Shown piece by piece: positions 35,153-36,119 of a stretch of 64,000 bases of DNA. Each line of letters begins with the position of its first letter. The first letter of the stretch is position 1. The stretch is taken from NCBI GenBank assembly GCA_016795155.1, contig JAEUIE010000032.1:1-64000 (forward strand). The letters are read 5' to 3'. The notes below the pieces were generated by a model that saw only the letters and a program-made list of their open reading frames with translations, was not told the DNA's origin and searched no databases. A program made the translations under genes and the position numbers. The stretch comes from Planctomycetia bacterium (GTDB taxonomy: Bacteria > Planctomycetota > Planctomycetia > Gemmatales > HRBIN36).

Positions 35153-35168
35153 CCTGCACGCCTGGGTG

Positions 35169-35195
35169 CCATGCCCATCCTCCAGATGGGCATGG
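35169..35195. repeat. CATGCCCA-type REP hairpin 1
   Basis: A perfect 11-bp stem, CCATGCCCATC/GATGGGCATGG, encloses a 5-nt loop. It shares the CATGCCCA core with the hairpin at 35240, suggesting one repeat family. Confidence 0.7.
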
Positions 35196-35239: not shown

Positions 35240-35263
35240 CATGCCCACCTTTGGGTGGGCATG
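35240..35263. repeat. CATGCCCA-type REP hairpin 2
   Basis: CATGCCCACC/GGTGGGCATG form a perfect 10-bp stem with a TTTG loop. It lies 37 bp before the left 94-bp repeat of the transposase element. Confidence 0.7.
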
Positions 35264-35299
35264 GCTGGGTGGCACTGCTTTGAACTTCAATTGTCTGCT

Positions 35300-35393
35300 G
35301 TGGCACTGTTTTGTGTACTCACAAAGCAGTGCGAGACCACGCGAAGCCACCGCGTGACTTGCACTGCACTGGGAGTACCCAGTACAGTGCCAC
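35300..35393 (+). repeat. Left cloverleaf-like 94-bp repeat
   Basis: The 94-bp unit has terminal arms GTGGCACTGT and ACAGTGCCAC (10-bp stem). Three internal hairpins follow: TTGTG-TACT-CACAA, a long arm starting GCAGTGC with an inner CACGCG/CGCGTG stem, and ACTGGG-AGTA-CCCAGT. Together these would make a tRNA-like cloverleaf or cruciform. It matches the right copy at 82 of 94 positions. Confidence 0.85.
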
Positions 35394-35472
35394 GAATCCA
35401 TTGACGAATTCACTTGCTCTAGCAAATCACTTTGCTACCCTCGTGCCATGTTACCCCGACCACTTCAAAACC

Positions 35473-36021
35473 ATGAAGCACTTCGAGATCGAGGGGCACG
35501 CCCACTTCCTCACCTTCTCGAACTATCGTCGCATCCCCATGCTCAGCAAAGAACGAACCTGCCACTGGTTCGTGGATGCCGTCGCCAAAGCTCGTGTCGA
35601 ACAGGAGTTCGATGTATGGGCATGGGTTATCATGCCAGATCATGCCCATATGCTTATTTGGCCTCGTCGCCCCAAGTACAAAATGGGCCCTATCCTGCAA
35701 GCCATCAAGCAACCCATTGCCATTCGCGCGATCGGCCACCTGCGTCGTCATGCACCGAAGTTCCTGAACAAGCTGCGTGTCGTCAACAAGAATCGCACCT
35801 ACCACCGCTTCTGGCAACCGGGCGGCGGCTTCGATGGCAATCAAGTAGAACCCGCAGCCATCCACGAGATCATCGAGTACATCCACAACAATCCCGTACG
35901 TGCCGGGTTGGTAGAAAAAGCGATCGACTGGAAGTACTCCAGCGCCCGTGATTGGGCCGGGTTCCCGAACGTGATTCTGCCCGTGGATCGCACCGTGCCC
36001 ACCTGGCTCAACGGGAGATAA
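35473..36021 (+). CDS. RAYT-family (IS200-like Y1) transposase
   Basis: The product is 182 residues from ATG 35473. It shows the HUH/Y1 signature: His57-Ala-His59 in MPDHAHML, and the candidate catalytic Tyr136 in EIIEYIHNNPVRAGLV, with the RAYT-type conserved tail DWKYSSARD. RAYTs are domesticated relatives of IS200/IS605 transposases that process REP hairpins. The flanking repeats are the likely substrate. The gene appears intact, and the C-terminal end meets the right repeat within 5 bp. Confidence 0.88.
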   Translation: MKHFEIEGHAHFLTFSNYRRIPMLSKERTCHWFVDAVAKARVEQEFDVWAWVIMPDHAHMLIWPRRPKYKMGPILQAIKQPIAIRAIGHLRRHAPKFLNKLRVVNKNRTYHRFWQPGGGFDGNQVEPAAIHEIIEYIHNNPVRAGLVEKAIDWKYSSARDWAGFPNVILPVDRTVPTWLNGR

Positions 36022-36025
36022 TGAT

Positions 36026-36119
36026 GTGGCACTGTTTTGTGTACTCACAAAGCAGTGTAAGACCACGCGATACCTTCGCGCGATCTTCACTGCACTCGGA
36101 GTACCGAGTACAGTGCCAC
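36026..36119 (+). repeat. Right cloverleaf-like 94-bp repeat
   Basis: This copy has the same length and orientation as the left repeat and the same terminal arms. Twelve positions differ. In the last hairpin a G-C pair has become C-G (ACTCGG-AGTA-CCGAGT), and the middle arm keeps its pairing by a one-base shift, so the structure is preserved while sequence changes. Confidence 0.85.

Follow-up and report, generated by a model that had tools for sequence, protein, structure and literature searches.

The closest described relatives of the locus reported here are the REPINs, defined as inverted doublets of REP sequences, in which compensatory changes were noted (Bertels and Rainey, 2011; PMC3116915). 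In its Fig. S11 legend, that study sets a long hairpin against a 'clover' fold of the REPIN, and names the clover as the probable target of RAYT recognition. In a later study, RAYT genes are described as flanked by REP monomers or dimers, with mention of REP heterodimers and of REPs in the PVC group (Di Nocera, 2013; PMC3733652). GT[AG]G feet and the motifs of RAYT subclasses are given in a 2018 survey, which also reports that REPtrons do not transpose as a unit (PMC6006769). Single-stranded REPs are reported to be cleaved, the foot acting as a guide (PMC8266576).

In this report we focus on one RAYT gene of a Planctomycetia bacterium (assembly GCA_016795155.1), located in a stretch of 64,000 nucleotides from contig JAEUIE010000032.1, hereafter the window. 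The locus is very probably a REPtron, that is, a single-copy RAYT between two REPINs of its own repeat family. The RAYT (TnpA_REP) is a domesticated transposase of the HUH/Y1 type, and REPINs are a form of selfish DNA. The RAYT/REPIN kind as such is known, and the clover fold was proposed in 2011; new are the lineage-specific REPIN families, documented here with their RAYTs in a planctomycete.

The RAYT gene and its flanking repeats

A repeat search of the window uncovers a 101-nt direct repeat at 35296 and 36022 (87% identical, spacing 726). When the whole genome is searched with the 94-mer by BLAST, the second copy is recovered over its full 94 nt (87%, E 6e-27), which rules out a chance repeat. 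A first-pass annotation of this DNA had described two 94-nt repeats in the same orientation on either side of a RAYT gene, and the coordinates, the identity and the match of the gene to its family model all confirm this description.

Each half of a unit consists of a GTGG foot and a full hairpin, GCACTG..GTACTC..CAGTGC, and the second half is inverted relative to the first. This makes the unit a REP pair (REPIN), with a linker of about 28 nt between its two inverted REPs. The short arms (GCACTG/CAGTGC/GCACTG/CAGTGC) are one sequence in alternating orientation, which the first-pass annotation overlooked, and two independent REP hairpins are thus an equally possible fold. The most fitting reading of each unit is a REPIN or head-to-head REP dimer, after which the features are named:

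35269–35282, + strand: possible REP-foot fragment GTGGCACTGCTTTG, with one mismatch, which may be a decayed REP (sequence match)
35300–35393, + strand: left REPIN (head-to-head REP dimer), 94 nt (direct repeat; genome BLAST; covariance-model matches on both halves)
35300–35332, + strand: REP 1 of the left REPIN, GTGG foot and hairpin GCACTGTTTTGTG-TACT-CACAAAGCAGTGC (covariance model R1, 53.5 bits, E 4.6e-11)
35333–35360, no strand: linker of the left REPIN, with a 6-bp hairpin CACGCG/CGCGTG that is not conserved among other copies (alignment, folding)
35361–35393, − strand: REP 2 of the left REPIN, inverted (covariance model R1, 52.6 bits)
35473–36021, + strand: RAYT / TnpA_REP gene, 182 aa, motifs DHAH (HUH), FWQ and YIHNNP (NF047646, 91.1 bits; PF01797; 4ER8, E 6e-6; translation)
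36026–36119, + strand: right REPIN, 94 nt, 5 nt past the end of the RAYT stop codon (direct repeat, BLAST, covariance model)
36026–36058, + strand: REP 1 of the right REPIN (covariance model R1, 49.4 bits)
36087–36119, − strand: REP 2 of the right REPIN, inverted (covariance model R1, 49.3 bits)

As in described REPs, a GT[AG]G foot lies 5' of a palindrome of 20–50 nt that is present in multiple genomic copies, and the copies inspected look intergenic. As in described REPINs, the inverted pair with its short spacer recurs, in eleven units of the family found in the window (family 1) and in 23 full units of a second family treated below. The premise that known REP units are simple hairpins, single or paired, fails to set this unit apart, because the unit is itself a paired REP and a 'clover' fold of such pairs had already been proposed in the legend cited above (PMC3116915).

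The gene passes the curated RAYT model of NCBIfam (NF047646, REP_Tyr_transpos; cut-off 80 bits) and carries the Pfam domain Y1_Tnp. The match to E. coli TnpA_REP (4ER8) is weak, and the regions of the HUH motif (HAH) and of the tyrosine (Y136) align in it, as they also do with relatives. The motif set DHAH/WQ/YIHNNP is an exact match to none of the subclass rows published in the 2018 survey (PMC6006769). About 80 nt separate the left repeat from the ATG at 35473. A longer TTG frame in the list of open reading frames crosses that repeat; since the similarity to relatives sets in near the ATG, the TTG is probably not the real start. Other RAYTs of the genome are at most 44% identical to this one, and REPs are found on both sides of it by repeat search and covariance model alike.

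Direct repeats at both ends and an IS200-like transposase between them would also suit a composite insertion sequence, in which the whole 820-bp block of unit, RAYT and unit moves as one. This RAYT is present in only one copy, however, on which ground a composite transposon was rejected; moreover, full repeats occur without a RAYT, and REPtrons, according to the 2018 survey cited above, do not transpose as a unit (PMC6006769). Such an element is thus very unlikely. As part of a REPtron, and by analogy with other RAYTs, the protein would bind and cleave the single-stranded REP hairpin with GTGG as a guide, and could spread REPINs in trans through the genome. Each REP comprises the GTGG tetranucleotide and, after it, a hairpin that is often imperfect, with a GCACTG stem, a variable upper stem and a loop of the GTACTC type.

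Copies, covariation and fold

The first-pass annotation had proposed a search of the genome for copies of the unit that lack the RAYT gene, and such copies exist. They include four further close full REPINs, none of which has a RAYT between its REPs; more divergent full REPINs are located on C22, C50 and C27, and single REPs occur as well (for example C31:7067). In total, family 1 comprises about 30 REPs in the 68-contig assembly, few for a REP family (tens rather than hundreds). The pattern of foot and arms has 20 exact matches in the genome, vs none for a reversed-pattern control, and a covariance model of the single REP has 31 matches in this genome and one across 20 relatives, none of which belongs to the same genus. 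PSD1 is matched 30 times in the planctomycete-like host genome and in none of 14 control genomes, and the named relatives of the RAYT are nearly all Planctomycetota; the proposal of a RAYT/REP system in a planctomycete is borne out. A separate observation is a 'double foot' hairpin at C31:5500-5535, whose two ends carry GTGG and CCAC; it resembles a REPIN from which the centre has been lost.

Among 17 REPs, 94.5% of the cells of the REP hairpin are paired, compared to 80.9% after shuffling, and 25 cells carry double changes where 8.9 are expected, a count reached in 0 of 500 shuffles; at six pairs both sides have changed. This signal rests on the freely varying upper stem, because the foot and lower arms are largely fixed by the search key. 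For the tips, only the 17-REP alignment was used, because in the alignment of nine full units MAFFT mis-places the tips of the short ones. For the outer, inner and middle stems of the cloverleaf, these nine units show no excess of pairing (88.0% vs 88.4% shuffled) and no covariation signal (score 0.097 vs 0.107 in shuffles), and compensatory change in outer stem and central arm is no more frequent there than in shuffles. Most pairs of the outer stem, and many of the arm pairs, are invariant and therefore uninformative on covariation.

The middle arm varies among the nine units and is often broken. Of these nine, the two window units alone have a clearly folded linker (z −4.7 and −2.5; −0.6 to 1.2 in the other seven); the linker hairpin has z below −1.5 in 2 of 9 family 1 units and 4 of 23 family 2 units. 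The conserved element is the REP hairpin, seen as the side hairpins of the cloverleaf, and not the outer stem or central hairpin. The expectation that an alignment of copies would reveal covariation therefore holds for the side (REP) hairpins and fails for the outer, inner and middle stems, and the copies do not support the idea that covariation maintains a four-stem unit, the middle hairpin being clearly stable in just 2 of 9. Two differences between the window copies on which that idea had been built are nonetheless real, namely the change of G-C to C-G in the third hairpin (CTGGG..CCCAG to CTCGG..CCGAG) and the one-base shift of the middle arm.

The cloverleaf foldability of each copy, also put forward in the first-pass annotation, agrees with our calculations: with DNA parameters, both window units reach their energy minimum in a cloverleaf whose outer stem of 10 bp encloses two side hairpins and a central arm. 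The cloverleaf is predicted to lie below the two-hairpin form by a mean of 4.4 kcal/mol in family 1 and 2.8 kcal/mol in family 2, an approximate gap since the energy of two hairpins is the sum of separately folded pieces, and it has the lower energy in 20 of 22 family 1 strands and 33 of 46 family 2 strands. By these estimates the two forms are close enough in energy to be alternatives; the cloverleaf is energetically plausible in DNA, and would be available to any inverted REP pair.

These energies speak for the whole 94-nt cloverleaf, a four-way junction, as the form that the transposase recognises, as distinct from the REP hairpins. So does the arm pair 10:91, which co-changes (T-A in 5 units, C-G in 3), and in units of the T type a T.G mismatch that remains in each REP hairpin is absent from the cloverleaf. 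The co-change can, however, also be expected if both REPs of a unit share a subtype, and a mismatch or bulge in the stem is described as normal, and indeed required, in the REPs of E. coli (PMC8266576). Furthermore, single REPs occur with their hairpin kept, and the stems particular to the cloverleaf lack covariation above shuffles. We therefore regard recognition of the whole cloverleaf as unlikely.

Alternatively, the repeats could act mainly as RNA or transcript elements (an mRNA end, a terminator or a regulator of the RAYT) and not as transposase substrates. The right unit directly follows the RAYT stop, the left one precedes the start, and the fold is strong as RNA too; on the other hand, copies are found at many loci without this RAYT, and the units match no Rfam family and carry no terminator-like or promoter site that we could find. 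Identity with a known structured RNA was dropped, as the best Rfam hit is only a miRNA entry far below the gathering score, and so was the terminator or promoter reading. A mainly RNA-based function is quite unlikely, and an RNA role would in any case be compatible with the REPtron reading.

A second REPIN family and other RAYT loci

The covariance model also matched a different repeat, and a search with that repeat identified family 2, with about 25 units of the same design as family 1 (GTGGCAGGG..linker..CCCTGCCAC). Family 2 (GTGGCAGGGTTA...) is more abundant than family 1, occurring at C30:17774-17871 and about 24 other places (L100-L124). Its two tips differ from one another (31.7% Watson-Crick pairing from tip to tip), and each is self-complementary, with compensations within the tip at 14:25 (TA to CG four times, to GC once) and 16:23 (GC to AT twice). 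Because the tips of a unit are unlike each other, the long hairpin pairs poorly. In two units (L120, columns 72:90; L124, columns 12:27) the arms carry double changes; these restore the REP hairpins and weaken cloverleaf stems, and thus argue against the cloverleaf as the recognised form. Stem mismatches are frequent, with T.G in the left REP of 21 of 23 units and C.A in the right REP of 16, and the cloverleaf would remove both.

Since the tips differ within a unit, these repeats offer a natural test of which REPIN fold is recognised by the RAYT, the question raised in 2011. One possible answer is that this lineage evolved differing self-complementary tips, so that the long hairpin is disfavoured and clover DNA, a four-way junction, would be both the lowest-energy form and what the RAYT really acts on; we consider it improbable. 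As to a cognate RAYT of family 2, the family's arms are absent from the flanks of the host-genome RAYTs examined, and either the family is an orphan or the assembly lacks its RAYT.

The host genome carries further RAYT-like genes, and those on C22, C44, C5 and C23 each adjoin hairpin repeats of their own (read by eye); several RAYTs here therefore seem to have their own repeat family. The RAYT at C23:57890 (L015) is bordered on either side by inverted pairs, about 135 nt in size and with GTAG feet, a layout like that of the window locus around a different RAYT, and the RAYT at C5:109991 (L013) adjoins arrays of GTGGGACACGAT..CCCAC repeats, seemingly a further REPIN family. Just upstream of the window locus, 35168-35193 and 35240-35263 are hairpins of another REP type, CCATGCCCACC..GGTGGGCATGG, which also flanks the RAYT at C22:103266 (L062), a gene with a TGA within its frame. 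Finally, a RAYT-like gene at C14:51898 (L016) has a long terminal inverted repeat, GAGCC.GGAACGTTAGTGACCGGAG, and resembles the TIR-type elements as they are described in PMC3733652.

Beyond the host, an alignment-based scan of public genomes yielded 80 loci with RAYT homologues, nearly all in Planctomycetota (a single-protein scan yielded none). The flanks of 41 homologues contain 43 hairpins with GTGG or GTAG feet, vs 3.7 expected from dinucleotide shuffles, mostly facing inward from both sides, and complete REPINs adjoin the RAYT at L140, L141, L145, L150, L169 and L176. GTGG-footed hairpins beside RAYTs are thereby documented across Planctomycetota, where the papers cited here mention REPs only briefly.

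Comparison with known systems

The units most closely resemble the REPINs of Pseudomonas fluorescens SBW25, as described in PMC3116915: both consist of inverted REPs with a spacer, are found genome-wide with a cognate RAYT nearby and show compensatory changes. Both also have two alternative folds including a 'clover', a likeness drawn from the figure legend alone. In contrast to SBW25, the planctomycete units have another sequence, unlike tips, a poor long hairpin and tens of copies instead of hundreds.

With the head-to-head heterodimers of GTAG REPs, as portrayed in PMC3733652, they share dimers of REPs that differ in stem or loop and a RAYT flanked by monomers or dimers; the foot here is GTGG, as in most GTAG-20 elements of Opitutus terrae (PMC3733652). 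With TnpA_REP and the REP/BIME elements of E. coli (4ER8), the locus shares the HUH/Tyr core, a foot tetranucleotide and an interrupted stem. It differs from them in its GTGG instead of GTAG foot, in the motifs WQ and YIHNNP compared to WE and YIHYNP of that subclass, and in the weak sequence match of the two proteins.
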